Source of the DNA: Euryarchaeota archaeon UBA24
GTDB lineage: Archaea > Halobacteriota > Halobacteria > Halobacteriales > Hikarchaeaceae
Direction of reading: 5' to 3'
DNA: 52,618 nt
Assembly: GCA_002503845.1 (NCBI GenBank)
Contig: DASO01000008.1
Coordinates: 1-52,618 of the forward strand
Numbering within the stretch: position 1 is the first letter of the stretch; the number at the start of each line of letters is the position of its first letter. Positions 2-35,662 of the stretch are shown here, in pieces. The notes under the pieces are model-generated. The model ran no database searches, was not told the origin of the DNA, and saw only the letters and a program-made list of their open reading frames with translations. A program made the translations under genes and the position numbers.

Positions 2-655
2 CCACCAGAAGACCTAGATACAAGCCACGGTAGAATATATCCGAAAGGAGATCCCGATGCAGGAATTGAAATAACAGACGTGTTCACTGCAGCCATTTAC
101 GAATCAGGATACTTCCTAAAACGGGGTGGAGAAATCATTGGAAAAGACACCTGGGTTATTGAAGCTGGAGATCCTCAACCCGGTAAACCAGGTCGTGTGA
201 ACTCATTCTATTCAGAAGGGGCAGTTAGTGCAAGTGTCCGTGTCAATCTCCACACTGGAGAGGTCAAAGTGGACCAAATAGTTGGGGTCTTCGATGTTGG
301 AAAAGCTATCAACCCAAAACTAGTCGATGAACAAATTATTGGGGCAATTAGCATGGGACTCGCAGGAGTTTTATATGAAGGAATGGTTTACGACGAAAAA
401 TCAGGAAGAACCATCAATGCAAATTATTCCGATTATAAAATCCCAACGATTCATGAACACCCGGTGGTAGTTCCAATTTTCTTAGAAGAAGGCCATCCTC
501 AAGGTCCATACGGGGCAAAAGGTATCGGAGAATCCCCCACAGTCGCTGTAATCCCTGCAGTCGCAAACGCGATTAGAGATGCAACAGGGCATCGATTTAA
601 AGAGTTGCCTATAACTCCTGAAGATATCTATTTAAAAATCTCTGAGACTGAATAA
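2..655 (+). CDS. Molybdenum hydroxylase large subunit, C-terminal part (partial)
   Basis: The frame is open from the window edge to the stop at 655, so this is the last 217 residues of a larger gene. It matches the C-terminal Moco-binding half of xanthine dehydrogenase/CoxL-type large subunits. The GAKGIGE stretch carries the glutamate that acts as general base in this superfamily. It is followed by the usual SPTVAVIPAVANAIRDATG helix and a short tail ending near LPITPEDIY. The RGFG or AYR active-site segment lies outside the window, so the subtype cannot be called. The next gene is convergent and starts 8 bases on, so this gene ends its transcription unit. The substrate is unknown. Confidence 0.9.
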   Translation, partial: PPEDLDTSHGRIYPKGDPDAGIEITDVFTAAIYESGYFLKRGGEIIGKDTWVIEAGDPQPGKPGRVNSFYSEGAVSASVRVNLHTGEVKVDQIVGVFDVGKAINPKLVDEQIIGAISMGLAGVLYEGMVYDEKSGRTINANYSDYKIPTIHEHPVVVPIFLEEGHPQGPYGAKGIGESPTVAVIPAVANAIRDATGHRFKELPITPEDIYLKISETE

Positions 656-1879: not shown

Positions 1880-3355
1880 TTATCTTTCCACGTGGCCTAC
1901 TGATTTCCACGGTCTGTTTGCAAGTACTATTTTCTCCAAACCTGTTCTTTTAATAACGGCATCTGCCGCATCAGCAGCCTGTTCATACAAATCAGGATAA
2001 TTCACTGAAATCCCATCCACTACTCTATCCTTCATGATCACCTTCCCATTACAAATAACTGTATCAACTTCAAATCCCTGGGCCTGATATACGATTGCAG
2101 AAACTACATTCCTAATTGGTTGGAAATGTGTATAATCTAGTCCTAAAAGAACTATGTCTGCTTTTTTTCCGGGTTCAATGGACCCCAAATTTTTTTCTTG
2201 TCCTATTGCCCGGGCCCCATCTATGGTTGCCATCTCGAGTGCCTTTTCCGGAGTCATGATAGTCGAATCCGAGTGAACTCCTTTATGGAGTGACGCAACA
2301 TATCGCATATCGTTTATCATATTGACTGTATCGCTGCAACTCGCATTATCGGTTCCAATCCCCACTGTGACTCCATAATTGAGCATAGTTGGTATGGGTG
2401 CAGTGCCCGACCCCAACATCAAATTTGAAATGCAATTGTGCGCTACTCGCGCATCCGTTTGTTGCATCAGTCGTATATCCGATTCACTCAAGTGAACACA
2501 ATGGCCAAATAAGGCCCTTTCCCCTAAGCATCCAATGACATTCATATATTCTGTCATTGAAAAATGCCCACCCCCCAATGCCAATTCCTCATGATACGTC
2601 TCTGAAACGTGGGTGGTTGTCATCACGTCATGTTCTTCTGCAATGGCATAACATGCTTGTAGCCCATCTGTAGTTGTACATCGTGGAGATAATGGACCCG
2701 GCCAAATACTTTGTCTACCCTCTGCTGACCCGTTCCATTTCTTTATAAGATCTTCAATATTTTTAATAGACCCATCTGTATCATCTAGATCCGTGCTTGC
2801 ACGTTTTACACCTGGGGCAGCATCTCGATATAATTTAACAAAGTCAGACAACGCAGATTCCATGTTTTCATCGATAAAAGATTGACAATATATGTTTCTC
2901 ATTCCTGCCTGATCATACACTTCTAATTTTGATTTTACAATATCATCTGCATAACCCGATCCACCCCCTATCGCATTTTCCACAAATGTAGTTGTTCCCG
3001 ATTCAATTGATTCTAAACAGTACAATGCAGAAGCAATTGCATGCTCCTCTGCGTTCATTTCTGCCCGGGCAGGTTTAGTCACATTAAATAACCAATCATA
3101 AAGAGCCCTATCTGTCTGTCCGCCCCCTCTTAAAAGAATATCTGCAACATGTGTGTGGGTATTTATCAATCCTGGTATTACTGCATGCTTTTCTGCACTA
3201 ATAACCACGTCCGCATCGTGACTTGATTTAATATCCTCTGATTGGCCCACGTCAATGATCTGTTCACCTTCAATTGCAATTGCTCCATTTTCAATAACGG
3301 ATCTGTCCGAATCCATCGTAATCACGACACCATCGGTAATCAATATATCTGCCAT
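1880..3355 (-). CDS. ATZ/TRZ-type amidohydrolase (cytosine/guanine deaminase-like)
   Basis: The 491-residue protein belongs to the metal-dependent amidohydrolase superfamily, the branch with guanine deaminase, SAH/MTA deaminase, 8-oxoguanine deaminase and chlorohydrolases. Visible ligands are HTH at 67-69, a TTHVSETYHE strand, FGHCVH, and GTDN with the catalytic Asp. Such enzymes remove exocyclic amino groups or halides from N-heterocycles such as purines and triazines. It is slightly longer than the usual 440-470 residues. It lies head-to-head with a coxMSL operon across 102 bases and upstream of the guanidino enzyme. That context suggests it prepares or processes the substrate of the neighbouring hydroxylase. 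The exact substrate cannot be read from sequence. Confidence 0.85.
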   Translation of the reverse strand: MADILITDGVVITMDSDRSVIENGAIAIEGEQIIDVGQSEDIKSSHDADVVISAEKHAVIPGLINTHTHVADILLRGGGQTDRALYDWLFNVTKPARAEMNAEEHAIASALYCLESIESGTTTFVENAIGGGSGYADDIVKSKLEVYDQAGMRNIYCQSFIDENMESALSDFVKLYRDAAPGVKRASTDLDDTDGSIKNIEDLIKKWNGSAEGRQSIWPGPLSPRCTTTDGLQACYAIAEEHDVMTTTHVSETYHEELALGGGHFSMTEYMNVIGCLGERALFGHCVHLSESDIRLMQQTDARVAHNCISNLMLGSGTAPIPTMLNYGVTVGIGTDNASCSDTVNMINDMRYVASLHKGVHSDSTIMTPEKALEMATIDGARAIGQEKNLGSIEPGKKADIVLLGLDYTHFQPIRNVVSAIVYQAQGFEVDTVICNGKVIMKDRVVDGISVNYPDLYEQAADAADAVIKRTGLEKIVLANRPWKSVGHVER

Positions 3356-3457
3356 ATTGAATTCCTGTTCCTCTTACAAAAAGATCTTTTCGCAAAACCG
3401 TCGTACCGCAAACGTCATTATAGTCAAAGAGGTAATTTACCGTGGAAAACACCAATC

Positions 3458-4321
3458 ATGAGGGATTTTACCTATATTTGTCCAGAAACTATTGATGAAG
3501 TCTGTCAGTTGCTATCCGAGCAGGAAAATGCATTTCTAATTGCAGGTGGCCAGAGCCTTCTACCACTTTTGCGCCTTAGAGCAGCAGACCTTTCTTGTCT
3601 TATTGATATCAATGGACTAAAAAATGCCAATTACATAACCTTTGAAAACCAACAAGTAAAAGTTGGACCAACTGCGCGACACGCAGAAGTCGCCGAATCT
3701 GAAACTGTAAAGAATCATTGTCTCGTTCTATCTCAAGTAGCATCCCATATTGGAGATGTACAAGTTAGAAACCGGGGTACTATTTGTGGATCTGTTGCCA
3801 ATGCAGATCCTGCAGGGGACCCTCCTGTCCTATCTGCTCTTCTAGATGTTGAAATCCAAGCTACATCTGTTCGCGGCGAAACCATTTATTCCGGAAGCGA
3901 TTTCTTCCAGGGTTTTTACGCCACCAATCTAGAGGAAGATGAGTTCATAACCGAAGTTCGATTCCCCAAGATTTCTTCCCCGACGGGGGTGGGATATGAA
4001 AAATGGGAGCCGAGCGAAGGCGCCTACCCCGTAGCCACTGTTGGTGCACTAATAACCCTGGAAGGCGACCTCATCTCTCAAGCAAAAATAGTAACTGGTG
4101 CAATTGAACCCGGGCCAACCTTTTCTGAGGATGCAGCAAACATTCTCCTCGGACAAAAACCCACAACTGAACTCATCACAGAAGCTGCCATATCTATTGG
4201 CGAAAATTCAGACCCAATTGAAGACGCAGAAGGGTCTATTCTATTCAAACAAGAATTAATGAAAACTTTATCCAAACGTGCAATTACCACTGCGGTAGAT
4301 TGTGCCCAAGGAGGTGCTTAA
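3458..4321 (+). CDS. Molybdenum hydroxylase FAD-binding medium subunit (CoxM-like)
   Basis: Residues 29-36 read AGGQSLLP and residues 108-113 read TICGSV. These correspond to the two FAD pyrophosphate-binding loops (AGGHSLLP and TIGG) of CoxM/XDH-B subunits. The second Gly of TIGG is Cys here. The C-terminal CO_deh_flav_C domain follows to residue 287. An in-frame extension upstream exists, but the ATG at 3458 gives the family's normal length and N-terminus. The subunit passes electrons from the 2Fe-2S clusters of the small subunit to FAD and on to an acceptor. It is the first gene of a three-gene operon M-S-L. The stop is followed 2 bases later by the small-subunit start. Confidence 0.92.
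   Translation: MRDFTYICPETIDEVCQLLSEQENAFLIAGGQSLLPLLRLRAADLSCLIDINGLKNANYITFENQQVKVGPTARHAEVAESETVKNHCLVLSQVASHIGDVQVRNRGTICGSVANADPAGDPPVLSALLDVEIQATSVRGETIYSGSDFFQGFYATNLEEDEFITEVRFPKISSPTGVGYEKWEPSEGAYPVATVGALITLEGDLISQAKIVTGAIEPGPTFSEDAANILLGQKPTTELITEAAISIGENSDPIEDAEGSILFKQELMKTLSKRAITTAVDCAQGGA
4307..4315 (+). promoter_or_regulatory. Strong Shine-Dalgarno for the small subunit
   Basis: AAGGAGGTG lies at the end of the coxM-like frame with about 9 bases to the ATG at 4324. It matches the 16S 3' end almost perfectly and decides the small-subunit start at 4324 instead of an in-frame ATG at 4300. It also shows that this genome uses SD-led initiation inside operons. Confidence 0.75.
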
Positions 4322-4323
4322 AA

Positions 4324-4827
4324 ATGTCTAATGCAAACCAAGAACCACAATCAGAGTTAATAGTAACCATAACTGTAAATGGATCCAAAACGGGTGAAAT
4401 CATCCCTGCAAGAACTCTATTATCAGAATATGTTCGAGAGCATCTATATCTTACTGGAACTCATCGCGGTTGTGAAACTGCAAAATGCGGTGCATGCACC
4501 GTTTTACTTGATGGAAAAGCAGTAAAATCTTGCAACGTACTAGCGGCGCAGGCTAATGGCAGAAACGTAACCACGGTTGAAGGTTTAGATGACCACGGAA
4601 AACTCAGCCCAGTCCAACAATCTTTCTGGGACAATCATGGTATGCAATGTGGTTACTGCACGCCAGGTTTCGTTATCGCCTCAACTGCATTACTAAATGA
4701 AAACCCTAACCCCACCATAGACGAAATCCGATTCGGTTTAGCTGGAAATATCTGTAGATGCACCGGATATACTAAAATTATAGAAAGTGTCCAGGACGCG
4801 GCACACCGAATAAACAAGGGATCCTGA
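4324..4827 (+). CDS. Molybdenum hydroxylase 2Fe-2S small subunit (CoxS-like)
   Basis: The 167-residue protein has the two-domain layout of CoxS/XDH-C. A plant-type ferredoxin domain has Cys 50, 55, 58 and 70. A helical domain has Cys 109, 112, 144 and 146 (CGYCTPG and ICRCTGY). These bind the distal and proximal 2Fe-2S clusters that carry electrons from the molybdopterin cytosine dinucleotide site to FAD. A strong Shine-Dalgarno precedes it. Its TGA overlaps the ATG of the large subunit by one base (4825-4829), implying translational coupling and 1:1 synthesis. Confidence 0.95.
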   Translation: MSNANQEPQSELIVTITVNGSKTGEIIPARTLLSEYVREHLYLTGTHRGCETAKCGACTVLLDGKAVKSCNVLAAQANGRNVTTVEGLDDHGKLSPVQQSFWDNHGMQCGYCTPGFVIASTALLNENPNPTIDEIRFGLAGNICRCTGYTKIIESVQDAAHRINKGS

Positions 4828-7259
4828 TGAGCAAAGCCCAACTCAAATCGCCCAAGCAAGTTGCTTCTACCAGCGCTGTAGTAGGTGCGCGAATTAATAC
4901 CAAAATTGGAAGAAAACTTGTAACTGGTACTGGCAGATTTTTAGATGATATAGTACTTCCTGGAATGCTTCACGCACGGTTTGTTCGCAGTCCCCATGCC
5001 CATGCTAGAATTTTAAATATTGATACTTCTAAAGCCATGGATATTCCTGGTGTAGAACTAGTCTGGACTGCCGAGGATATTGATCCTTATGTACTCCCAT
5101 TTAGCCATCCTGAAAACGCGAAACATCTAGGTTTTGTGGATGAAGAGGTACTTGCCTCCGATAGAGTTCGATATGTTGGGGATGAAGTAGCGATTGTGTT
5201 GGCAAAAGATAGAAACACCGCGATAGAAGCAGCAGACTCGGTCGAGATCGAATATGAAAAATTACCCGCTGTAATCGACGCGGAATCGGCCTTACTTGAT
5301 AGTGCCACTATCATCCACCCGCACCTATCTTCCGACCCAAAAAATCCGATAAATGGAAATCTAATCTATGCTGGAAAAACCGTTGGAGGTGATACTAAAA
5401 CTGCCCTCTCTAATGCAGACGTAGTTGTGGAAGCAACCTTTACAAATAATAAAACGAATCCGTCTCCTCTCGAACCTCATGGTTGTATAGCAGATTGGAA
5501 TAATGGAAGTCAAAAACTAACCCTTTGGGCATCTACCCAGGTTCCCCACCGATTACCCGAACTTATAGCCACTGCAGTTGTGGACCTAGACCCCACGAAT
5601 ATAATCTGTAAAATCTCAGATGTTGGAGGGGGATTTGGAGCAAAAGTTGGTAGATATTCTCATCACGTTGCAACATGCGTTCTTTCTATGTACACTGGAA
5701 AACCTGTTAAAATGTTTTTAGATCGAATTGAAGAAATGCAAGCTGGACGTGGGCGTTACGACGAAACCATGAATGGAAGATTGGCCCTTTCAAAAGAAGG
5801 GAAAATGTTGGCGCTTGATATAGATATGCTCCAAAACACTGGAGCTTATGCAAACTATGGGGCTGTGATTGCCAAATCTTCAGCACTCACTTGTGGAGGC
5901 CCTTATCTCATACCCAACCAAGAAATTCGGTATAAATTAGTTTACACAAATATAATGCCTGGGACTGCAGTACGCGGATTTGGAAATCCCCAATTTATGT
6001 ATGCAATTGAACAGCTCATAGACCTCGCTGCAGAGGAGCTAGGTATGGATGCATTTGATTTACGCCTACTTAATGTGCCCAAAATATCCGATCTCCCTTT
6101 GCGAACTGCAACACGATTAAAACTCCGGGATATGGATGTATATGGATGCCTCACTCAACTCCGAGAACGTATTGATTGGGATTCAAATCGCGGTGGCCAT
6201 CGAACAAAAGATGGTAAACTCCGCGGAGTGGGAATGGGGACTGTTATGCAACGCAACGGGAACAAAAGTGCAAAAGGAGCAGATTACTCCGGAGCAATTG
6301 TTCGCATGGACCGTTTTGGATCTGTCACTGTTTTTTCAGGAACATCTAGTATTGGTACTGGGACCACCACTGGTATTGTTCAAATGGTATCTGACACTCT
6401 GGGCGTCTCCGTGGACCGTGTGGATATAGTCATTGGAGATACTGATATAACTCCCGAAGATATGGGGGTTTGGGGGGACCGTTCCTCTGTTTTCGCAGGA
6501 ACTGCCGCAACCATGGCTGCACAAAACCTCAAAGCTAAAATCATTCGACTAGCTGCTCATCTGCTAAATATTTCTGAATCGAATGTAATCATCTCCAACG
6601 ACCGAATCTTCGAATCCAATAAACCAGAAAATGGGATGTCAATTGAAGAGTTTGCAAATCTTGCTACATATGGTGACCAAACCAACCGCCCCTCCGATTT
6701 ACAAGGTGGAGTTTCCCTTGTTGGCGAAGCACGATTTGAAACCCAAGAAGGTGAATTTATGGATGAATATGGTACTGGGAGTGTATCTCATGTTTATACC
6801 TTCTCTTCCGCAGCCGTTGTTGTAGATGTTGACCTATCCACTGGGGAAATCGATATAGTTGATATCGCAGTTGCAGAAGATGCCGGGACTATAATCAATC
6901 CAAAACTAGCCTCTGGACAAGTCCAAGGGGCCGTAATCCAAGCCCTTGGAGAGGTCCTTCTTGAGGGGTATCAGTATGAATCTGATGGCTCACTTGCAAC
7001 TGGAACTTTACTTGACTATCATTTACCAACCGTTGCAGACATGCCTTTGCTACCTGAAGATTCAATTATCCACGTAGAAACTCCTGACCCAACCACTTCA
7101 TTTGGACAAAAAGGATTGGGAGAATGCGCGACTGTAACTATCTTTCCTGCTGTAGCAAACGCCGTTGCAGATGCGACCGGAATTCGCTTCCCAACGCTAC
7201 CTCTGTCCCCTTCTAGAGTCTTACCAGCTCTAGTTGAAGCAGGCCTGCGCGAATTATAA
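4827..7259 (+). CDS. Molybdenum hydroxylase large subunit (xanthine dehydrogenase-like)
   Basis: At 810 residues this is a full-length Moco subunit. It has the N-terminal Ald_Xan_dh_C hammerhead domain and GGGFGAK near 267-273 for pterin binding. RGFGNPQ lies near 382, and GLGE near 764 carries the catalytic Glu. The RGFG motif matches xanthine and aldehyde dehydrogenases. It is neither the AYxCSFR loop of form I CO dehydrogenase nor the AYRGAGR of form II, so CO oxidation is unlikely. It hydroxylates a C-H next to N or an aldehyde, probably on a heterocycle given the divergent ATZ/TRZ hydrolase and guanidino enzyme. It is last in its operon and converges on the gene for GTP cyclohydrolase III. 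Confidence 0.92.
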   Translation: MSKAQLKSPKQVASTSAVVGARINTKIGRKLVTGTGRFLDDIVLPGMLHARFVRSPHAHARILNIDTSKAMDIPGVELVWTAEDIDPYVLPFSHPENAKHLGFVDEEVLASDRVRYVGDEVAIVLAKDRNTAIEAADSVEIEYEKLPAVIDAESALLDSATIIHPHLSSDPKNPINGNLIYAGKTVGGDTKTALSNADVVVEATFTNNKTNPSPLEPHGCIADWNNGSQKLTLWASTQVPHRLPELIATAVVDLDPTNIICKISDVGGGFGAKVGRYSHHVATCVLSMYTGKPVKMFLDRIEEMQAGRGRYDETMNGRLALSKEGKMLALDIDMLQNTGAYANYGAVIAKSSALTCGGPYLIPNQEIRYKLVYTNIMPGTAVRGFGNPQFMYAIEQLIDLAAEELGMDAFDLRLLNVPKISDLPLRTATRLKLRDMDVYGCLTQLRERIDWDSNRGGHRTKDGKLRGVGMGTVMQRNGNKSAKGADYSGAIVRMDRFGSVTVFSGTSSIGTGTTTGIVQMVSDTLGVSVDRVDIVIGDTDITPEDMGVWGDRSSVFAGTAATMAAQNLKAKIIRLAAHLLNISESNVIISNDRIFESNKPENGMSIEEFANLATYGDQTNRPSDLQGGVSLVGEARFETQEGEFMDEYGTGSVSHVYTFSSAAVVVDVDLSTGEIDIVDIAVAEDAGTIINPKLASGQVQGAVIQALGEVLLEGYQYESDGSLATGTLLDYHLPTVADMPLLPEDSIIHVETPDPTTSFGQKGLGECATVTIFPAVANAVADATGIRFPTLPLSPSRVLPALVEAGLREL

Positions 7260-7276
7260 TCTTTAACCAACTATCT

Positions 7277-8038
7277 TTAGTACTCGAATTCAATCATAGT
7301 CGAATCTTCTCTACAACGTTCTAGTGCATGTTTTGCTGCCATCCCCGCATCTTGGGCCAATCTCCCCCATCCAACCCCAACTTTTAGTTCTACACCCACT
7401 TCTTGCTGAACATGATTAATGGCTTTCTCATATTCTTTCTCTCCCAACTCCGAACATACTGTAATAACATTGTCACCCCCTACAAAAAATGACAAAGAGC
7501 TATATTCCTTGCGCATATATCGCATCAATTCCGCATACCCATGTTCTATTTCAATAAATGCATCAAATTCATTCAATTTATCAGTATACTTTCCAGTTGC
7601 ATCATTCACGTCAAAGTGCGCTATTTGAAGATCTTTCTCTGTCCGTTTTTCTTCCTCTATAGGTTCTCCCTCTAAAATCTGCACACGGCTACTATCTTGG
7701 GCACTACCTGTCACTTGTAATTGAGAAGTTGCTTTCCCGAGGGCCTTTGCGGGATCTTTGTCACTCGCTATACTCAGACTAACTGTTACGGGATATCGAT
7801 TCCCAATCGATTCTTGGATCAATGCGTGATATTCTCTATCGATTCCATTCGTTACGGCAATCATGTTGTCAAACCTTGAGAAAAAAACATATCCCTTTTT
7901 CATGCCAAACAATTGCGAAAAGTCTGCATATAATCTTGACTGAAGTGTCTGTAGATCCACTTCTCTTCTAGGTTTTGGAGTCACCGTCCACGGTCCATAA
8001 TTATCTATCTGTATCAATGTCAATTGAGCATTTGTCAC
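7277..8038 (-). CDS. arfA: GTP cyclohydrolase III (archaeal, FAPy-forming)
   Basis: The N-terminus (TLIQIDNYGPWTVTPKPR) is the hallmark of the archaeal GTP cyclohydrolase IIa/III family typified by MJ0145. The C-terminal half repeats a nucleotide-cyclase-like palm fold with FVGGDN near residue 178. The enzyme opens GTP to a formamidopyrimidine nucleotide, the first step of archaeal riboflavin and F420 (deazaflavin) synthesis. Length (253) is normal. The start is GTG, but the conserved N-terminus begins there, so it is well supported. It sits between two molybdenum hydroxylase gene groups and about 4.5 kb from ribK and ribB, diverging from coxG. Confidence 0.93.
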   Translation of the reverse strand: MTNAQLTLIQIDNYGPWTVTPKPRREVDLQTLQSRLYADFSQLFGMKKGYVFFSRFDNMIAVTNGIDREYHALIQESIGNRYPVTVSLSIASDKDPAKALGKATSQLQVTGSAQDSSRVQILEGEPIEEEKRTEKDLQIAHFDVNDATGKYTDKLNEFDAFIEIEHGYAELMRYMRKEYSSLSFFVGGDNVITVCSELGEKEYEKAINHVQQEVGVELKVGVGWGRLAQDAGMAAKHALERCREDSTMIEFEY

Positions 8039-8176: not shown

Positions 8177-8617
8177 ATGGAATTTGAAGGAGATATCCTA
8201 GTCCCTGCAGAAAGACAATTTGTTTTCGACGAAATGCAAAAACCAGAAATGATTCAAAAAATCCTGCCCAATTGTGAATCTGTAGAAAAAGTAGAAGATA
8301 ACAAGTATGTGGCAGTTTTAAATGAAAAAGTTTCCAAAATTTCAATGAAACTTGAAACCGAACTTGAGCTAGTCGAAATACGTGACCCCGACCTGGTCAA
8401 ACTAACTATAACTGGTGAGGCTCCCGGTAGCAATACAAGTGTTCAAGGGACTGCAACATTCGAATTATCTGAAGAAGGACAAGAAACTAGAATTCAGTAC
8501 ACAATGGACGTCGAAGTAAGTGGAAAATTAGCTTCAATTGGATTCCGAATGATTAAACACGTAGCAAAAAAACGCATAGACGAGATTGGGACAAACCTCC
8601 AAACTGTGTTTCAATAA
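8177..8617 (+). CDS. coxG: CoxG-like SRPBCC protein
   Basis: The 146-residue protein has the START/SRPBCC fold pattern of CoxG: FEGDILVPAERQFVFDEM at the N-terminus, an LPNCESVEKV segment, and a C-terminal amphipathic helix (ASIGFRMIKHVAKKRI). CoxG proteins accompany molybdenum hydroxylases. They have been linked to membrane recruitment of the CO dehydrogenase and to binding of a lipid or quinone; the role here is inferred. It is monocistronic and convergent with coxE. Confidence 0.85.
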   Translation: MEFEGDILVPAERQFVFDEMQKPEMIQKILPNCESVEKVEDNKYVAVLNEKVSKISMKLETELELVEIRDPDLVKLTITGEAPGSNTSVQGTATFELSEEGQETRIQYTMDVEVSGKLASIGFRMIKHVAKKRIDEIGTNLQTVFQ

Positions 8618-8635: not shown

Positions 8636-9880
8636 TTACGGCAAACTACTTTTTAAACTCCTGGTCATTTTCTCTAAATCCTCAATTGAGTTGAATCCAA
8701 AAAAATAATCAATATACGGAAGTGCAGTTTTCATCCCCCTGACCTCTGGCTCATAATTATCTGAACTTGCTGGTGGATTCAACCAAATCGAAATATTACT
8801 TTTTCTCTTTATTTCTGCCATTCGTTTAGACAAAACACCCAAATCTCCCGCATCCCATCCATCACTTACTATCACCACTGCAGTATCCCGATCAACTATA
8901 AACGGATCTTTCGAAATAATCTTGTCTATGCATTCTCCTATTCGTGTCCCAGATCCCCATTTTGTTCTGGCGCGCTCCATCTCCTCGACTGAGTTTTTGA
9001 GACTCGGTGTCTGAAAATATTCTGTCACTTCCGTTATATCTGTATCGAAAAAGAACACTCTGATTTCTGCATATTGGCGCACACATTCAAACACAAATTT
9101 AAACAAAAATTCTCGGTCTATATTCCTGATCATCGATCTACTCACATCAATAAACATCGACATTTTGACCAACGATTTGTCTTTATTTATTCTAGGGAGT
9201 CTGTCGGGGGGAAGTTCTTTAATAACTCCCATCGACCGCCTCAAATCGATCAAACCATTTTTATCTTGGATAGATTCATACCCTCTTATCGTTCCTATTT
9301 TGTCTCCCATTTCCCCTACACAAAATACTATTTGATCCGATCCAAAATCCCCAAATGAGCTCTCCATTACTTGGGCCTTTTCTTCTAGCCCTCCTTCAAA
9401 AAAAACACTATCTGTTTCATTTGTACCGATCTTATCTTGTTTACTTTCTTCCACTTCGGATGAAACAAGATTTTTATCTTGACTTTCTGAATTTTTACCT
9501 TTTTTATTTTCACCCAACATCGACGCTTCCAATGGCTTCCTAACCTCCACTTCCGATAGTTTTTCTTCCTTAGATCCTGCTCTACTCTCCACATCTTCTT
9601 TTACCCTGTCATCCCCATCTTCTAACCCGTCCCTCCACGTTTCTTCCCAATAGTAATTAAACAATTCATCAAATTGGATTTTTTCTTCTGGGTTGTCTAT
9701 CAAACTAGTATATAATGCATAGTAAAATTGATCTTTATTAGTGGGATCTATCTCTCTCAATGCAGTTGCCGCAGAAATAGACTCATCAACCGAAATTCTC
9801 GTCCCTGATTCCCTCAAAGCCCGGCAAAATTGGACCAATGTCTCTGTATATGATTTCTTCTTATGGTCAATCTGTACCAT
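8636..9880 (-). CDS. coxE: CoxE-like VWA-domain assembly factor
   Basis: The C-terminal half is a von Willebrand A domain with the MIDAS motif DVSRSM at 245-250 and the companion Asp in VSDGWDAG. The N-terminal 90 residues resemble CoxE. Between them, about 95-170, lies a charged Lys/Glu/Ser-rich linker likely to be disordered and longer than usual. CoxE works with the AAA protein CoxD in maturing the Mo centre (sulfuration and metal insertion in Oligotropha CODH). The gene is last in an operon coxD-SDR-coxE, with one base between the SDR stop and its ATG. At 414 residues it is near the family norm. Confidence 0.88.
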   Translation of the reverse strand: MVQIDHKKKSYTETLVQFCRALRESGTRISVDESISAATALREIDPTNKDQFYYALYTSLIDNPEEKIQFDELFNYYWEETWRDGLEDGDDRVKEDVESRAGSKEEKLSEVEVRKPLEASMLGENKKGKNSESQDKNLVSSEVEESKQDKIGTNETDSVFFEGGLEEKAQVMESSFGDFGSDQIVFCVGEMGDKIGTIRGYESIQDKNGLIDLRRSMGVIKELPPDRLPRINKDKSLVKMSMFIDVSRSMIRNIDREFLFKFVFECVRQYAEIRVFFFDTDITEVTEYFQTPSLKNSVEEMERARTKWGSGTRIGECIDKIISKDPFIVDRDTAVVIVSDGWDAGDLGVLSKRMAEIKRKSNISIWLNPPASSDNYEPEVRGMKTALPYIDYFFGFNSIEDLEKMTRSLKSSLP

Positions 9881-9881
9881 A

Positions 9882-10646
9882 TTATTTAGCCGTATACCCC
9901 CCGTCCACTACAATATCTGCACCCGTGATATACCTAGCCCTATCTGATGCAAGGAATAAAACCACTTCTGCCACATCATTTGGATTTCCAAAGTAGGGGA
10001 GTGGGGTTTCTAATTCCAACCTTTGTTTCACACCTTCATTCTCAAAAACTTTCTTTGTCCGATGGGTTTGGATTAAACCTGGACATACTGAATTAACTAG
10101 TATCGGAATCTCTGCATATTCTACCGCAAGCTGTTTTGAAAAATTGATCACTCCCCCTTTTGATGCACAGTAAGCAGGCCTATTCTTATAACCCACCAAC
10201 CCCAATTGGGATGCTATATTGACAATCCGCGAATTTTCCGATTGTTTGAGATGTGGGATTGCACATTTAGCACACAAAAACATCCCTGTTAGGTTAGTCC
10301 GTATAACCCTCTCCCACTCGTCAGTGCTCATTTCTTCTATGGTGCCTGCAGATTGGTCTGCAGCAGCGTTGTTTACTAATATGTCTATCCCTCCAAATGA
10401 TTCCACTGTCCTTCCCACCAATGCTTCAACTTGGCTATTTTTCGATATATCCACTTTTGTAAAAATGGCTTCCCCTCCACTTTCTGTAATGATCTCTTCT
10501 GTTGTTTTCCCACCTTCTCTCGGTAGCTCTTGTAGGTCTCCAATAGAAACTTTTGCACCGTAGGTCGCTAGCTTTAATGCTATACTCCTGCCTATCCCCG
10601 AAGCCCCCCCTGTCACAATTGCTATTCTACCCTCCAAATCCCTCAT
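9882..10646 (-). CDS. Short-chain dehydrogenase/reductase
   Basis: A classical SDR of 254 residues with TGGASGIG at 12-19 (Rossmann dinucleotide loop), NNAA near 88, Ser about 145, YCASK with catalytic Tyr and Lys near 158, and a C-terminal GADIVVDGGY. The Asp in IGDL after the second strand suggests NAD preference. It oxidises or reduces a small alcohol or ketone. The ATG overlaps the coxD stop by 4 bases (ATGA), and it sits between coxD and coxE, where an SDR is not normally found. This suggests that its reaction belongs to the pathway served by the hydroxylase. Substrate unknown. Confidence 0.9.
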   Translation of the reverse strand: MRDLEGRIAIVTGGASGIGRSIALKLATYGAKVSIGDLQELPREGGKTTEEIITESGGEAIFTKVDISKNSQVEALVGRTVESFGGIDILVNNAAADQSAGTIEEMSTDEWERVIRTNLTGMFLCAKCAIPHLKQSENSRIVNIASQLGLVGYKNRPAYCASKGGVINFSKQLAVEYAEIPILVNSVCPGLIQTHRTKKVFENEGVKQRLELETPLPYFGNPNDVAEVVLFLASDRARYITGADIVVDGGYTAK

Positions 10647-11551
10647 GTCCCCGACCCTTTATTGATATTTTCCAATATCCGATCGACAGTCTCGCCTTTT
10701 AATAATTCTAAATCCTCTGGTTCTTTCACAATAGTAGACAAAGACCGTTTCACAATATCTGGTGTTATGATTTCTACTTCTAGTTCTGCAAGGGCCATGG
10801 CCCAATCTAGCGTCTCTGATATTCCTGGAATCCTCATAAGATTTTCTTGGTATCTAATAGTCTGCATGAATTCCACTAGTTGGGTCGTAATATGTTCATC
10901 TAAACTTGGAACTTTCATCCGAACAATTTTCAATTCACGGTCCATTTCTGGAGGCTCTAAATATAGATATAGACATCTCCTCTTCAGTGCATCACTAATT
11001 TTACGCGTCCTATTGGATGTTATTATAATTATTGGTGGGTCGTCCGATTTTATTGTTCCCAACTCTGGGATGGTAAGTTGATTCTCATCTAACACTTCTA
11101 ACAGAAATGCTTCTATTTCTTCCCCTGCTCTATCTAGCTCATCTATTAATAATATTGATCTATCCGAATTCCGTAGTGCTTGAAGTACCGGGCGCTCAAG
11201 TAAGTATTCTTCTTCAAAAATAGACTTTTCTATATTTTCTGTTGATTCTTGTTCTCCTAGTTCCCCTTCTATCCGAATTCTAAGAAATTGTCTCATGTGG
11301 TCCCATTCGTAGCTTGTGTTCTCAATCCCCAAACCCCGATAACATTGTAGACGAACCAAATCTCCTTCTGTAACATCTGATAATGCCTTTGCTAGTGATG
11401 TTTTCCCACACCCAGGTTGGCCTTCTATCAGTAATGGCCTAGCCAGTTTGGAGGCCAATAACAAAGCCGTTGAAATTCCTATATTTGAGATATACCCTGC
11501 TTTCTGCAATAGTTCTGTAATTTCATCAGGCGTTTCAGCATTTATTTTCAT
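10643..11551 (-). CDS. coxD: MoxR-type AAA+ ATPase, CoxD-like
   Basis: Walker A is GQPGCGKTS at 44-52, Walker B LLIDELDRAG near 134-142, and the sensor I strand IIIITSNRTRKI near 173. A C-terminal lid follows to residue 302. The arrangement is that of MoxR AAA+ proteins, and pairing with a VWA partner gene (coxE) identifies the CoxD subgroup. CoxD is a chaperone that in CO dehydrogenase remodels the active site for sulfur and metal insertion. It heads the operon coxD-SDR-coxE and lies 10 bases downstream of the ribK-HAD fusion on the same strand, so flavin and Mo-enzyme maturation genes may share a transcript. Confidence 0.88.
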   Translation of the reverse strand: MKINAETPDEITELLQKAGYISNIGISTALLLASKLARPLLIEGQPGCGKTSLAKALSDVTEGDLVRLQCYRGLGIENTSYEWDHMRQFLRIRIEGELGEQESTENIEKSIFEEEYLLERPVLQALRNSDRSILLIDELDRAGEEIEAFLLEVLDENQLTIPELGTIKSDDPPIIIITSNRTRKISDALKRRCLYLYLEPPEMDRELKIVRMKVPSLDEHITTQLVEFMQTIRYQENLMRIPGISETLDWAMALAELEVEIITPDIVKRSLSTIVKEPEDLELLKGETVDRILENINKGSGT

Positions 11552-11561
11552 ATGTTCTCTA

Positions 11562-12491
11562 CTATACTAATTGATCGGGATGTAGATATGACATTTCCGC
11601 TCGATATGCTGTTTCTGCATCAGATCTGGCATCTCCAATAAATATCGAATTTCCCTTAGAAGTTCCCATATGCTCTAGACACCTATACAATGGCTCTGGA
11701 TCTGGCTTGGTTATTGCACTATCTCTTCCAATTATACATTCTATTTTGTCCATAACTCCTAACCCCTCTAGGGCGATTTTAGCCGCCTTTGGGGAATTAA
11801 TCGTGCAAACTGAAATGGGAATTGATAGTTTGTCTAAGAATTCAATCAATTTTAAAGGACTTGCTTTTTTTGCCCCTTCAATCTCATATTTTGTTAATAT
11901 GTCATCTACACCTCCAAACAATCCATTTTCCTCTGCAATTTGAAACACATCTTCATGCCTATACTCTGTTATGTCCCCCTCTACGTACTCTTGCATCAGT
12001 ACCTTCAATTCCTCATAAGAACCTTCCCAATCTACATCTAGATGGACTAAAGTTTGATCCAAATCAAAAATAACCGATTCAAATAAATTTATGTTTTCGT
12101 GTTTTACGATTGATCCATTCGGTTTCCATACCTCCTCCCTTGGAGAAAATACCACTTCATCCTCTTCCTTTAAATCAAATAATTTTCTCAATTTTACAGG
12201 GGCAATTACTTCGGTTATTTCCTCTGGATACCCTTCTATAAGGGGGACTGTCGTACCTGCAACAATCCCATTAATTCTACATAGGTGAACTACTACCCCT
12301 TTGCATTCTCCACCTCCCAATTCTTCTATATTTTCTGACTGCAATCCTCTAGTATCTACATTCCTCAGATTTAATGTCCCATGAAATGGAATGAAGCCCA
12401 CAACTGGTTCTAATTCCCCTTTTGATTCCTCGATGAAATATGCCCCCTTCCCTTGCCCTTCAACCACGGCGCAGAACATTTGGTTATACAC
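11562..12491 (-). CDS. ribK: CTP-dependent riboflavin kinase fused to a HAD phosphatase
   Basis: Residues about 6-118 are a DUF120/RibK domain: GQGKGAYFI at 12-20, GTLN at 38-41 (the Thr/Asn pair that binds Mg in MJ0056), GGGEC near 59, and IAPVKLR near 96. This archaeal kinase makes FMN from riboflavin using CTP. Residues about 136-309 are a complete HAD phosphatase: DLDQT at 143-147, Thr230, Lys262 in KPDP, and GDARSD at 286-291. The N-terminal helix-turn-helix found in haloarchaeal RbkR proteins is absent. The start is either GTG 12491, two bases after the ribB stop, or ATG 12479. The HAD part could be an FMN hydrolase or the unidentified archaeal riboflavin-pathway phosphatase; that is inference. 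Confidence 0.88.
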   Translation of the reverse strand: MYNQMFCAVVEGQGKGAYFIEESKGELEPVVGFIPFHGTLNLRNVDTRGLQSENIEELGGGECKGVVVHLCRINGIVAGTTVPLIEGYPEEITEVIAPVKLRKLFDLKEEDEVVFSPREEVWKPNGSIVKHENINLFESVIFDLDQTLVHLDVDWEGSYEELKVLMQEYVEGDITEYRHEDVFQIAEENGLFGGVDDILTKYEIEGAKKASPLKLIEFLDKLSIPISVCTINSPKAAKIALEGLGVMDKIECIIGRDSAITKPDPEPLYRCLEHMGTSKGNSIFIGDARSDAETAYRAEMSYLHPDQLV

Positions 12492-12493
12492 AA

Positions 12494-13180
12494 CTATTTG
12501 TTTGGTTTCCCCTCTAGGGCTTCCACCAGTATTTTCCCTTCTACAAACAATAATCCGTTCTTTTCGGCATACTCTTGCATCTCCTCTTTCGAACTGGCCT
12601 TTCCACTTACATCATCTAACATCTCACACACCACAACTGCGGGTTCCATTCCTGCTGCCTTTGAAAGTGCTATTCCCAATTCTGTGTGCCCTCTCCTTTC
12701 TTTCAAAGAAGGTGCAGATCTTAGAATCTGGACATGCCCCGGGCTCCTAAACTCCTTAACAAATTGTTCTGCAGTATATTCTCCACTCTCTGCAGCATAT
12801 GCAACCTCAGCGAGCCTCTTGATCGTCGTTTCCCTATCAATATCTGTTATTCCCGTGTATGTGTCACGATGATTCACCGGAAGTGAAAAAGCCGATCTAG
12901 TGTCATATTTCAAATCACTATTCTCTGTTAATGGGTGATCTATCATGTCACTGAGGAATGGCAGTCCCAACAATTCCGACGCTTCATCTGAAATTGCAAC
13001 ACATATCAATCCACCCGCTTCGTTTCTAAACCTAGCAATTAGTGTATGGGTTATTTTTGAAGCAGCAATAACTAAGTCTGTTTCATTCTCTCTATCCTCA
13101 AAATCATGTATCAAGATTGGCTCCCCATCTGTCAGAGCAACGATTGCCCTCTCTACTATATCGTCATTCTTTTTATCCAT
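12494..13180 (-). CDS. ribB: 3,4-dihydroxy-2-butanone 4-phosphate synthase
   Basis: The protein converts ribulose 5-phosphate into the four-carbon unit used by lumazine synthase. The acidic Mg-binding loop DFEDRENETD at 26-35, the SAFSLPVNHRDTYTGIT substrate loop near 120-136, and RRGHTELG near 164-171 with its conserved His are all present. Length is 228 residues, as expected for a stand-alone RibB without a cyclohydrolase II domain, which fits archaea using ArfA instead. It is first in a ribB-ribK operon; its TAG lies 2 bases before the GTG of the fusion gene. Confidence 0.95.
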   Translation of the reverse strand: MDKKNDDIVERAIVALTDGEPILIHDFEDRENETDLVIAASKITHTLIARFRNEAGGLICVAISDEASELLGLPFLSDMIDHPLTENSDLKYDTRSAFSLPVNHRDTYTGITDIDRETTIKRLAEVAYAAESGEYTAEQFVKEFRSPGHVQILRSAPSLKERRGHTELGIALSKAAGMEPAVVVCEMLDDVSGKASSKEEMQEYAEKNGLLFVEGKILVEALEGKPNK

Positions 13181-15129: not shown

Positions 15130-15507
15130 TCACACCGATTTTCCAATTCCCAGTACATACCCATCTGGATCTTCTAATAAAAAGTGGTTTCTTCCCCACA
15201 TAACTTTTGGTTCTGTTAATATTTCTACACCCATACTAACAGCATTTTCGTATATTTTTTCAACATCATCTACATTTAATTCTAGAACCAATCCGTTTCC
15301 TCTTTTCCCAGTTGGTTTCCTCAAATTATACTGTGCAAAAACCTCTTCTTCAAAATCTTCTTCTAATACTATCGAACATCCTCCTGCTCCCAATTCAACT
15401 CTGCTACCTGGTTTTTCTATCCGTTTGAATCCTAACACATTTTCATAAAACTCCCTTGATCTTTCAATATTTTCTACTATCAACGTAACTTCGTGGACTT
15501 CACTCAT
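15130..15507 (-). CDS. VOC (glyoxalase/dioxygenase fold) protein
   Basis: A single vicinal-oxygen-chelate unit of 125 residues with two beta-alpha-beta-beta-beta modules. HEVTLIVENIERSREFYENVLGF opens the first, and GLVLELNVDDVEKIYENA with FLLEDPDGYVLGIG forms the second. His5 and Glu in the DPDGY region could bind metal. Members range from glyoxalase I and methylmalonyl-CoA epimerase to bleomycin resistance proteins. The ATG at 15507 is chosen over an in-frame GTG at 15528. It converges on the LLM gene with a 2-base gap. Specific function unknown. Confidence 0.8.
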   Translation of the reverse strand: MSEVHEVTLIVENIERSREFYENVLGFKRIEKPGSRVELGAGGCSIVLEEDFEEEVFAQYNLRKPTGKRGNGLVLELNVDDVEKIYENAVSMGVEILTEPKVMWGRNHFLLEDPDGYVLGIGKSV

Positions 15508-15602
15508 GTATTTCCCATCGTTTGCCACGTTCTTGGCTCTTACCGATCTATTTCCTGTGAAAAGTGTCCTTTTTATCTTTCAGTCTCTTTGTTCTATCAC
15601 CA

Positions 15603-33286: not shown

Positions 33287-35662
33287 ATGTCTCACACAGC
33301 AGAAACAGTAACCAATCCAACAGACGTGGTCGATGTAGGTGACAGAATCGTCCGTAGAGAAGACGGGGGCCTCGTAACTGGAAAGGCCCAATATACTGAT
33401 GATTATTCAGCCCCAGGTATGCTTTACGCCGCTATTCTTCGGAGTCAATATGCCTATGCCAAAATTTCCTCTGTGGATACTAGTTTAGCAGAAGCGCATG
33501 AGGATGTAGTAGCCGTTTACACAGCACAAGACGTCGAAGCCTCAGGAGTACTCGGAGAGGTTCTATCTCCTGTTGGACTTCTCAACCCCGGGCCAGATTC
33601 TCCCGTTTCTATTCGAACTGAGCTGTTCAAACCATTCAGGCCAATGCTAGCGAAAGACATCGTTCGTTATACTGGTGAAGGGATTGCCGTCGTAGTAGCC
33701 ACTGATCGTTATTCTGCATATGACGCTCTCGATCTAATCGACGTAAAATATGAGTCTTTAAAAGGAGTTACTGGAATTTCTGCTTCGACCGACACCAACG
33801 CACCCCAATTACATGAAGGGGCCCCTGGAAACATTTCCTACGATTGGGAAAATGGAAATAAAAAAGATGTAGAGGTCGCATTTAGCAACTCCGACCATGT
33901 AGTTGAATTAGACCTAGTTTTACCCAGGTTAATACCAAATGCAATTGAACCCCGCGTAGCCCTTGCAGACTATTCGCCATCTTCTGGAAAACTATCCATT
34001 AAACTTTCGAGCCAAGGCGCATTTGGACATCGGAATTATTTCTCAAAGTCGCTAGGTATTCCTTTGCACAAAGTCCATGTCACAGTACCTGCCGTTGGCG
34101 GCGGATTTGGATCTAAAAGTAAATTCTATGCTGGGGAGTTACTTTGCGCATGGTGTTCCGTCCAACTAGGATTACCTGTCAAATGGCAAAACACCCGTTC
34201 CGAGGCACATATAACCGATGCCCAAGGAAGATCCCATGCTACCAAGGCAAAAATAGCATTTAATAAAGACGGAACGTTCACTGCCCTCGAAGCCCACACT
34301 TATCTTGACATCGGGGCATACGTTTCTACAAAAGCACCATTACAAACAGGAGGATATGGTGTCCTCCTTTCTGGCCTCTACAAAATCCCTGCAGTATTTG
34401 TTAGGATGACTGGTGTATTCACCAATTCTGCTCCTGTGGACGCTTACCGTGGAGCGGGGAGGCCAGAAGCGGCATTCGTTGTTGAACGACTTGTCTATCT
34501 AGCCGCAAAGAAACTAGGAATGGATCCTGTTGAGATCCGCAGAAAAAATTTCGTCCCAAAGGATGAATTTCCATATAAAACACCAATCATTGCGGAATAT
34601 GATTGTGGTGATTATGAAGCAGCACTTGACCTAGCGTTAAAAACAATTGATTACGAAGGGTTGAGAAAAGAACAAATTTCTCTCCGAAACGAAGGGAGAT
34701 ATATTGGAATTGGACTTTGTTCTTTCATAGAACGAAGTGGTGGTGGAACCGAAACTGCAAAGTTGAGAATACACCCCACTGGTGCAATAACTGCATACGT
34801 TGGTTCTGCCGACTGCGGACAAGGGCACCAAACCCCCTTCACTCAACTAATTTCTCAGGGAACTGGTGTACAATTCAAAGATATTGAGATCGTTGCAGGT
34901 GATAGTGAAATATTACCTAGTGGAACTGGATCCTTTGGCAGTAGAACTGGTTCCATGGCTGGTAGTGCACTTCTCCGATGTACTGAGCAAGTAGTGGAAA
35001 AAGGAGAAAAAATCGCAGCCCATATTTTGGATACTACTACTTCTAATATATCATTTGAAAACAGCACGTTCCACGCAACAGACTCTCCAGACGATTCCGT
35101 AACCTTCGCAGAAGTTGCAGCAGCAGCCTATGGGAACAATCTGCCCGACGGTGTTGAAAGTGGATTTGAAATAACAACGGTTTATGAAAATAATAAAAAG
35201 GCATGGCCTTACGGAACCCACATAGCCGTCGTTGAAGTCGATGTAGAGACTGGAGAGGTTAAATTAAAACGCTATGTTGGAGTCGATGATGTTGGAACTA
35301 TATTAAACCCCATGATCGTCGAGGGCCAAATTGTTGGGGGAATTGTCCAAGGAATTGGACAAGCCTTATTTGAACAAGCTGTTTACGACAACTCTGGCAA
35401 TCTAGTATCTGGGACTTTGCAAGATTATGCAATGCCCCGTGCAATGCACCTACCCGACATCGAAACAGATCATATTGTCACTCCCACACCTAGTAATCTA
35501 CTTGGGACAAAGGGAGCTGGAGAAAGTGGCACTATCGGATCTCCTGCGTCAATAGCAAACGCCGTATCCGATGCACTTGAATCTTTTGGAGTTTCTCATA
35601 TAGACCTCCCAATAACTGATGAGAAGGTGTGGCAATCCATCAGTGAAGCAACCTCTTCTTAA
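33287..35662 (+). CDS. Orphan molybdenum hydroxylase large subunit (form II CoxL-like)
   Basis: At 791 residues this is a full Moco subunit with GGGFGSK near 270, the AYRGAGR loop near 385, and GAGE with the catalytic Glu near 742. AYRGAGR is the form II CoxL signature. Form II enzymes are not proven CO dehydrogenases and probably act on other substrates. No medium or small subunit gene adjoins it; nth and gtrA flank it. It may borrow the M and S subunits of the operons at 3458 or 39161. An AATATTA element centred about 32 bases upstream suggests its own promoter. Confidence 0.92.
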   Translation: MSHTAETVTNPTDVVDVGDRIVRREDGGLVTGKAQYTDDYSAPGMLYAAILRSQYAYAKISSVDTSLAEAHEDVVAVYTAQDVEASGVLGEVLSPVGLLNPGPDSPVSIRTELFKPFRPMLAKDIVRYTGEGIAVVVATDRYSAYDALDLIDVKYESLKGVTGISASTDTNAPQLHEGAPGNISYDWENGNKKDVEVAFSNSDHVVELDLVLPRLIPNAIEPRVALADYSPSSGKLSIKLSSQGAFGHRNYFSKSLGIPLHKVHVTVPAVGGGFGSKSKFYAGELLCAWCSVQLGLPVKWQNTRSEAHITDAQGRSHATKAKIAFNKDGTFTALEAHTYLDIGAYVSTKAPLQTGGYGVLLSGLYKIPAVFVRMTGVFTNSAPVDAYRGAGRPEAAFVVERLVYLAAKKLGMDPVEIRRKNFVPKDEFPYKTPIIAEYDCGDYEAALDLALKTIDYEGLRKEQISLRNEGRYIGIGLCSFIERSGGGTETAKLRIHPTGAITAYVGSADCGQGHQTPFTQLISQGTGVQFKDIEIVAGDSEILPSGTGSFGSRTGSMAGSALLRCTEQVVEKGEKIAAHILDTTTSNISFENSTFHATDSPDDSVTFAEVAAAAYGNNLPDGVESGFEITTVYENNKKAWPYGTHIAVVEVDVETGEVKLKRYVGVDDVGTILNPMIVEGQIVGGIVQGIGQALFEQAVYDNSGNLVSGTLQDYAMPRAMHLPDIETDHIVTPTPSNLLGTKGAGESGTIGSPASIANAVSDALESFGVSHIDLPITDEKVWQSISEATSS

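Follow-up and report, generated by a model that had tools for sequence, protein, structure and literature searches.

The archaeal CTP-dependent riboflavin kinase domain, DUF120 (PF01982), is known as the stand-alone MJ0056-type RibK (PDB 2vbv, 2oyn) and, joined to a helix-turn-helix (HTH), as RbkR of haloarchaea and Thermoplasma (PDB 3cta, 5trd). In plants a HAD phosphatase is joined to a flavin kinase in AtFHy/RFK, whose kinase half belongs to the ATP-dependent RFK family rather than to DUF120. Flavin synthesis also needs a phosphatase for 5-amino-6-ribitylaminouracil phosphate (ArPP; EC 3.1.3.104), which Table 6 of PMC8305020 lists among the unfilled pathway steps of Haloferax. Two further papers report the ArPP phosphatases, including those of B. 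subtilis, E. coli and Arabidopsis, as HADs (PMC12051542), until a non-HAD enzyme was described from A. aeolicus (PMC13028884). Judged by title or start of abstract, none of the papers matched in our open-access searches reports a DUF120-HAD protein.

A sequence-only reading of a 52.6 kb stretch of DNA from Euryarchaeota archaeon UBA24 (contig DASO01000008.1), referred to here as the window, had described a CTP-dependent riboflavin kinase of the archaeal type fused to a HAD phosphatase, with both halves apparently active. Here, we describe a computational analysis of this gene, its relatives and its neighbours (Table 1). The fusion is a real architecture made of known domains, and it recurs across assemblies.

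Table 1. Coordinates of the features discussed, in the window or in the locus named.
Feature	Location	Strand	Remarks
DUF120-HAD fusion gene (paralogue A)	window 11562..12491	-	stop codon included; likely start ATG 12479
DUF120 / CTP-dependent riboflavin kinase-type domain	window 12150..12467	-	residues 9-114; PF01982, MJ0056 alignment, conserved positions; GTLN at 38-41
HAD-IA phosphatase domain, motifs I-IV	window 11586..12074	-	residues 140-302; PF13419, TIGR01549, motif counts
ribB, DHBP synthase	window 12494..13180	-	PF00926 E 5e-53; TIGR00506 215.7 bits, cut-off 177.45
MoxR-type AAA ATPase (CoxD-like)	window 10643..11551	-	10 bases downstream of fusion gene
SDR oxidoreductase	window 9882..10646	-	overlaps MoxR gene
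VWA protein, CoxE-like	window 8636..9880	-	PF05762 E 1e-29
arfA, GTP cyclohydrolase III	window 7277..8038	-	PF05165 E 1e-83; first step of archaeal riboflavin/F420 synthesis
CoxG	window 8177..8617	+	PF06240
CoxM-like FAD-binding subunit	window 3242..4321	+	PF00941, PF03450
CoxS-like 2Fe-2S subunit	window 4300..4827	+	PF01799
CoxL-like molybdenum hydroxylase large subunit	window 4827..7259	+	65% identical to CoxL of Natrinema plasmid region
VOC/glyoxalase protein	window 15130..15528	-	haloarchaeal relatives directly adjoin ubiX
Paralogue B copies	L065 9497-10423; L066 9549-10475; L068 2111-3037; L069 1622-2548		
Decayed fusion genes beside ubiX	L181 6530-7203; L180 6130-6770		one DUF120 in frame, one frameshifted

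The open reading frame has 309 codons counted from its GTG. Because four close relatives begin at the downstream ATG, the gene probably starts at ATG 12479 rather than at GTG 12491, which would give a product of 305 amino acids. A Pfam search with this protein placed PF01982 on the N-terminal half (E 8e-16; 58.5 bits, cut-off 25) and HAD_2 on the C-terminal half (E 8e-16; 59 bits, cut-off 23.8), and returned no ATP-type RFK match. The C-terminal half is a HAD-IA member both by profile (TIGR01549, 29.2 bits against a cut-off of 23.3) and by fold. The GTLN motif, with T39 and N41 of the Mg site, and the four HAD motifs (DLDQT 143-147, T230, K262, GDARSD 286-291) lie where the sequence-only reading had placed them, and the HAD catalytic residues are D143, D145, T147, T230, K262, D287 and D291. 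The structure prediction agrees: an AlphaFold2 model (mean pLDDT 90.4, pTM 0.90) was matched by Foldseek over both halves, to MJ0056 with CDP (2oyn, 2vbu) and to HAD phosphatases (2hdo). An additional structure comparison returned HAD structures alone, the DUF120 half being matched by Foldseek.

The same single frame is present in three metagenome-assembled genomes (MAGs) of close relatives, namely the Hikarchaeia Halobacteriales ALOHA_A2.5_47 (L001, 94%) and Marine Group IV archaeon HikBin5 (L002, 74%), and G099. These relatives place the window in Hikarchaeia, a marine group (Marine Group IV). Five metagenome protein clusters also match the fusion, at 58-96%, some of them probably representing the same contigs as the MAGs. 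Since the fusion is intact in these other assemblies, an assembly or sequencing error joining two genes, which the earlier reading had allowed for, is ruled out as its origin. By Hikarchaeia genomes we mean four genomes distinct from the window's own: G001 (source of L002), G002 (source of L001), G099 and G114, the last two assigned to the group by closely similar loci. No DUF120 match in these four genomes leaves space for an N-terminal HTH, and none precedes the domain in the fusion, where it begins at residue 9. The earlier observation that the RbkR-type HTH is missing is therefore sound, as is, within the four genomes, its corollary that ribB control must differ.

The ribB stop codon lies 2 bases ahead of the fusion GTG and 14 ahead of the ATG, and the minus-strand genes follow in the operon-like order ribB-fusion-moxR-SDR-coxE with intergenic gaps of at most 10 bases. 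The gene arfA is 3.5 kb from the fusion, beside CoxM, CoxS, CoxL and CoxG on the plus strand, which gives the fusion a flavin-gene neighbourhood. The order ribB-fusion-MoxR is repeated in L001 and L002 and ribB-fusion in G099; in G114 a contig end falls inside ribB. Three more CoxL-like stretches, similar to that at 4827-7259, occur in the window (23-628, 33335-35650 and 39670-41961). Neither ubiX nor ubiD was found in the window by tblastn at 1e-8. Relatives of the VOC/glyoxalase protein adjoin ubiX in six haloarchaeal loci (L145, L146, L147, L150, L151, L157), and this protein possibly belongs to the same guild.

A PF01982 search found a stand-alone canonical RibK of about 144 amino acids in each of the four Hikarchaeia genomes, at 120-124 bits, as against just 53-63 bits for the fusions in these genomes. 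This rules out the fused domain as the sole riboflavin kinase. A canonical-strength DUF120 domain, RibK or RbkR, is present in 17 of 17 genomes checked; therefore an extra FMN kinase is not strictly needed. Judged from these sequence matches, the fused DUF120 is probably not the housekeeping riboflavin kinase. Of the original assignment, membership in the DUF120 family stands, but the role of the organism's riboflavin kinase is not supported, a separate canonical RibK being present. The canonical gene in L004 (1480-1914) lies away from ribB, flanked by a class IV aminotransferase gene and a radical SAM gene that carries a wyosine-formation domain.

The residues of the fused domain were compared with those of canonical kinases in two alignments. 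The first set 22 fused against 16 canonical domains (sequence from 15 of 18 loci, and MJ0056; 2p3m numbering). G14, T43, N45, P96, E107, P111 and R115 (as K in two) are retained in all 22 fused domains, and with them the Thr and Asn of the Mg site (TxN of GTLN). K/R98, T/S99, H101, Y27 and F31 occur in none of the 22 and K/R19 in one; residues common to all 16 canonical rows are among those lost. The Thr and Glu at the positions compared we take to be FMN ligands in MJ0056. The second alignment held 14 canonical domains (including Thermoplasma TA1064), 34 archaeal fused domains and 16 of 31 bacterial-type fused domains. The K/R98-T/S99 pair appears in 14/14 canonical and 0/50 fused rows. Position 98 is V, I or A in all 50 fused domains, with K/R in none, and T/S99 is kept in two (both S, both archaeal); the window protein has I85-E86 here. 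The NCBIfam equivalog NF040694 scored the window protein at 50.3 bits, below its cut-off of 168. Because the Mg-site residues are retained and K/R98, T/S99, H101, Y27 and F31 are lost, the Mg side of the fused DUF120 looks conserved and its acceptor side rebuilt. The proposal that both halves look active holds for the HAD motifs; the DUF120 half retains the Mg site and several further conserved residues and has lost others.

One alternative is that the DUF120 half is a kinase-dead sensor of CTP, flavin or prenyl-FMN which switches the HAD phosphatase. Canonical kinases elsewhere in the genome, and the loss of K/R98 and T/S99 in archaeal and bacterial-type fusions alike with the Mg site kept, would agree with a sensor. 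However, T43 and N45 are invariant in the rows examined, and a sensor would not obviously need a Mg site; furthermore, the haloarchaeal genome G261 (see below) retains DUF120 with its HAD half broken. We regard a sensor as unlikely.

All eight paralogue A rows have the full set of catalytic residues in the HAD half, as do all 56 stand-alone relatives, the latter with Ser at position 230; among the 25 other archaeal-type rows 23 are complete and the remaining two carry D287N. The stand-alone proteins of about 180 amino acids, family D (loci L011-L039), lie closest to the archaeal fused HADs. Matches to D at about 128-187 bits occur in 88 of 96 haloarchaea, and other haloarchaeal HADs score about 65 bits or lower among the matches listed, except for a gene of G040 that is split into pieces (77 bits). 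W155, E203, N232 and R256 are common to all 96 archaeal HAD rows, fused and stand-alone; of 31 bacterial-type fused HADs, none has W155 or N232, one has R256 and 18 have E203. A PanB-like gene stands within 1.5 kb of D in 20 of 29 loci by tblastn, and in 21 by clustering.

Three of the four Hikarchaeia genomes carry two fusion paralogues, A behind ribB and B elsewhere, and G114 shows B alone. Paralogue B lies between panB and hisD (confirmed by Pfam for G001) on the strand opposite to both, and the PanB-like gene is the neighbour that it shares with family D. Asp287 of HAD motif IV is replaced by Asn in 7/7 copies of B. A role as histidinol phosphatase, considered in view of the adjoining hisD, was set aside on account of the opposite strand. 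In this connection, PMC8305020 mentions Haloferax HVO_0431 in the context of histidinol phosphatase.

The class-wide search found the full-length fusion in 4 of 391 Halobacteria genomes (G119, G149, G323 and G341), and a phylum-wide sample of 294 genomes held none outside G001. A profile search at E 1e-20 gave 81 matches, comprising 28 archaeal-type fusions, 31 longer bacterial-type fusions and a remainder. A bacterial-type profile matched 231 proteins at 1e-60; the best 120 of the 231 all carry PF01982 and HAD, and 117 of these 120 have both motif patterns. Seven of the best 120 carry an organism name, each bacterial, and the named fusions come from Desulfobacula, Desulfobacterales, Dethiobacter, Bacillota, Pseudomonadota and Xanthomonadales. 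The architecture search suggested with the first reading shows DUF120-HAD to be more widespread, in haloarchaea, on a plasmid of Natrinema and in numerous bacterial-type proteins. A scan of viral contigs found no relative of the bacterial fusion. Plasmid searches with it returned 275 records, only the Natrinema plasmid being covered over at least 80%, and the others, among the matches listed, were matches to the HAD half. Eleven haloarchaeal genomes without UbiX have more than one DUF120 match: in nine there is a second or third domain of RbkR strength (108-131 bits), in two one DUF120 gene is split into two matches, and none has a domain of fused-type strength.

In HAD trees the archaeal fused domains form one group (support 88/87 in one tree and 85/83 in another) that adjoins family D, joined at 100/98, and the bacterial-type fused HADs group with phosphoglycolate-phosphatase-like proteins (100/96). 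The DUF120 tree gathers the archaeal fused domains into a single clade (100/99), separate from the bacterial-type and canonical domains, a placement to be read with the long branches flagged in that tree. Separate archaeal and bacterial fusion events are the simplest reading of these trees. The FMN hydrolase-riboflavin kinase of plants, with reversed domain order, is a third fusion (PMC2972280). The convergence with plants that had been proposed therefore rests on at least two prokaryotic fusions and the plant one.

The fusion is linked to ubiX in haloarchaea. UbiX (TIGR00421) scores above cut-off in 32 of 391 Halobacteria genomes, including all four with the fusion in the same draw; chance co-occurrence would have a p of 3.7e-5 if genomes were independent, which they are not, because the operons of G149, G341 and G323 are alike (UbiX, UbiD and PaaA/PaaC-type genes, the latter Pfam-confirmed in G149). 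Fusion and ubiX share a contig in all four. In G341 the fusion, taken by its ORF, opens 1 base after the ubiX stop; the distance is 1.4 kb in both G149 and G323 and widens to 14 kb in G119, where XdhC, MoeA and Cox-type genes are nearby. These contigs measure 386-580 kb and are secondary by size; of the fusion-bearing haloarchaeal replicons, just the Natrinema record that follows is a named plasmid. Among 72,556 plasmid records three match the fusion, with coverage of at least 80% only in Natrinema gelatinilyticum NZ_CP100757.1. This record also has the best plasmid UbiX match (69%); of 389 such matches it alone reaches 60% identity. Its ubiX is 16 kb away from the fusion, and the region further contains CoxL, MoeA, a MobA-like gene and a pair of UbiD genes. 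A role in molybdopterin-cytosine-dinucleotide synthesis, considered for a CTP-type domain near CoxMSL, MoeA and MobA-like genes, was set aside because tblastn found no CoxL in 20 kb around the fusions of G149, G341 and G323. Two fusion-bearing haloarchaea have a second ribB copy (L191 7484-8140; L192 7462-8118); that of G149 (L191), which adjoins lipoate-ligase-type and FGGY-kinase-type genes, was judged unrelated.

The 30 haloarchaeal UbiX loci fall into 10 with at least 61% identity to the UbiX of G341 (G341 included) and 20 with at most 49%. Four of the ten have an intact fusion. Two, G261 and G283, have decayed fusions divergent from ubiX: G261 keeps DUF120 in frame but is without HAD motif I and the greater part of the cap, and G283 has a frameshift and an altered HAD motif I. 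The remaining four show no fusion in the stretch read and a single DUF120 match in the genome. All four Hikarchaeia genomes likewise encode UbiX, at 66-69% identity to the G341 protein, one copy being truncated where its contig stops. These genomes of about 1 Mb (loci L215-L218) have 5-8 UbiD-type decarboxylase matches each: by TIGR00148, G001, G002, G099 and G114 give 5, 8, 6 and 7 matches, of which 3, 7, 4 and 4 are above cut-off. The four fusion-bearing haloarchaea have 2-3 UbiD matches, G261 and G283 one each, just below cut-off, and six haloarchaea without fusion and UbiX have 0, 0, 0, 0, 0 and 2 (below cut-off). The number of UbiD genes suggests that Hikarchaeia metabolism is prenyl-FMN-heavy.

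Our tentative explanation is that the fusion product may be an auxiliary two-domain enzyme of flavin or prenyl-FMN supply. Its N-terminal half, by its residues a riboflavin-kinase-type barrel with a Mg site and without the acceptor-side residues of canonical enzymes, would use CTP-Mg to make a phosphorylated flavin precursor, most simply FMN, for flavin-demanding clusters. The HAD half would dephosphorylate a compound of the flavin pathway, either ArPP or FMN, and the UbiX-linked task would lie mainly in the DUF120 half. In favour of flavin supply are the operon-like order behind ribB with arfA nearby, the co-occurrence with UbiX and UbiD in haloarchaea, the Natrinema plasmid and Hikarchaeia, the survival of DUF120 next to ubiX in G261 despite the loss of HAD motif I, and the independent bacterial fusions. 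Against it stand the lost acceptor-side residues, and a window without ubiX and ubiD; in Hikarchaeia G001 ubiX adjoins an amidase gene, followed by CoxM, and not the fusion. In addition, the haloarchaeal fusions have no rib genes near them in the stretches read, 28 of the 32 UbiX-bearing haloarchaeal genomes are without an intact fusion, four of them with the same UbiX type, and the neighbours of paralogue B, panB and hisD, are not flavin genes.

The sensor considered above and a second alternative are equally improbable in our estimate. In the second, the HAD half is the missing archaeal ArPP phosphatase and the DUF120 half a riboflavin kinase, so that a single chain would catalyse an intermediate and the final step of FMN synthesis. 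The clustering with ribB and arfA, the Haloferax gap in PMC8305020 and the HAD nature of the ArPP phosphatases covered in PMC12051542 agree with this. However, in haloarchaea the fusion keeps company with ubiX, and neither G261 nor G283 retains motif I. The nearest stand-alone HAD, with the same W155, E203, N232 and R256, lies near panB and was not found (no match better than 1e-16) in 14 haloarchaea, all of which keep ribB. The last result argues against family D as the required ArPP phosphatase and weakens it as a dedicated one; it bears little on paralogue A. Paralogue A is a possible candidate, to which the single profile test, that on family D, lends no support.

Somewhat more doubtful still is a plant-like bifunctional FMN hydrolase/riboflavin kinase that sets the balance of FMN to riboflavin. 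Plants combine these two activities in one protein (PMC2972280), some 30% of HAD phosphatases can hydrolyse FMN (PMC12051542), and prokaryotes have fused DUF120 to HAD twice independently. Yet an FMN hydrolase would oppose the FMN demand of ubiX operons, and the acceptor side of the kinase is altered. We further consider it a long shot that the fused DUF120 is a separate class of CTP-dependent kinase whose acceptor is not riboflavin; its more hydrophobic pocket (K/R98 to V/I/A) would yield a UbiX substrate, possibly dimethylallyl phosphate from prenol, and the DUF120-HAD architecture, invented at least twice, would serve prenyl-FMN synthesis where UbiD genes are numerous, as in Hikarchaeia. 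It is likewise very improbable that the protein makes dimethylallyl phosphate, by the HAD half from dimethylallyl diphosphate or by DUF120 from prenol and CTP, for although the fusion co-occurs with ubiX, position 98 has changed in all 50 fused domains and FMNH2 and dimethylallyl phosphate are the UbiX substrates (PMC7662398), the sequence bears no sign of a prenyl substrate, paralogue A stands in a ribB operon, and those 28 UbiX genomes do without an intact fusion.

Two phosphatase lineages were apparently joined independently to one kinase family, and in both cases the same acceptor-side pair is absent. Together with the company of ubiX and ubiD that the archaeal fusion keeps, this points to a specific, previously undescribed reaction in flavin or prenyl-FMN supply. 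These short, assayable proteins bear on three questions: which enzyme serves archaea as ArPP phosphatase, where archaeal UbiX obtains its substrates, and how FMN is turned over. A plain label of CTP-dependent riboflavin kinase on fused DUF120 proteins is an unproven annotation.

Compared with known systems, the fusion shares with MJ0056-type RibK its fold, domain, GTLN Mg site, G14, P96, E107, P111 and R115; unlike RibK, it is without K/R98, T/S99, Y27 and F31, mostly without K/R19, and has a HAD attached. With RbkR it shares the DUF120 domain and linkage to ribB, but it has no HTH, its acceptor residues differ and its gene lies behind ribB, not ahead of it like the DUF120 gene of haloarchaea. 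Family D resembles the HAD half most closely but is without DUF120, and is common in haloarchaea whether or not ubiX is present. The plant AtFHy/RFK likewise unites a flavin kinase-type domain and a HAD phosphatase in a single polypeptide, with the HAD N-terminal rather than behind the kinase domain. Finally, the bacterial-type DUF120-HAD proteins have the same domain order as the archaeal fusion and have also lost K/R98 and T/S99 in the 16 compared, but their HAD half is phosphoglycolate-phosphatase-like and H101 is mostly retained.
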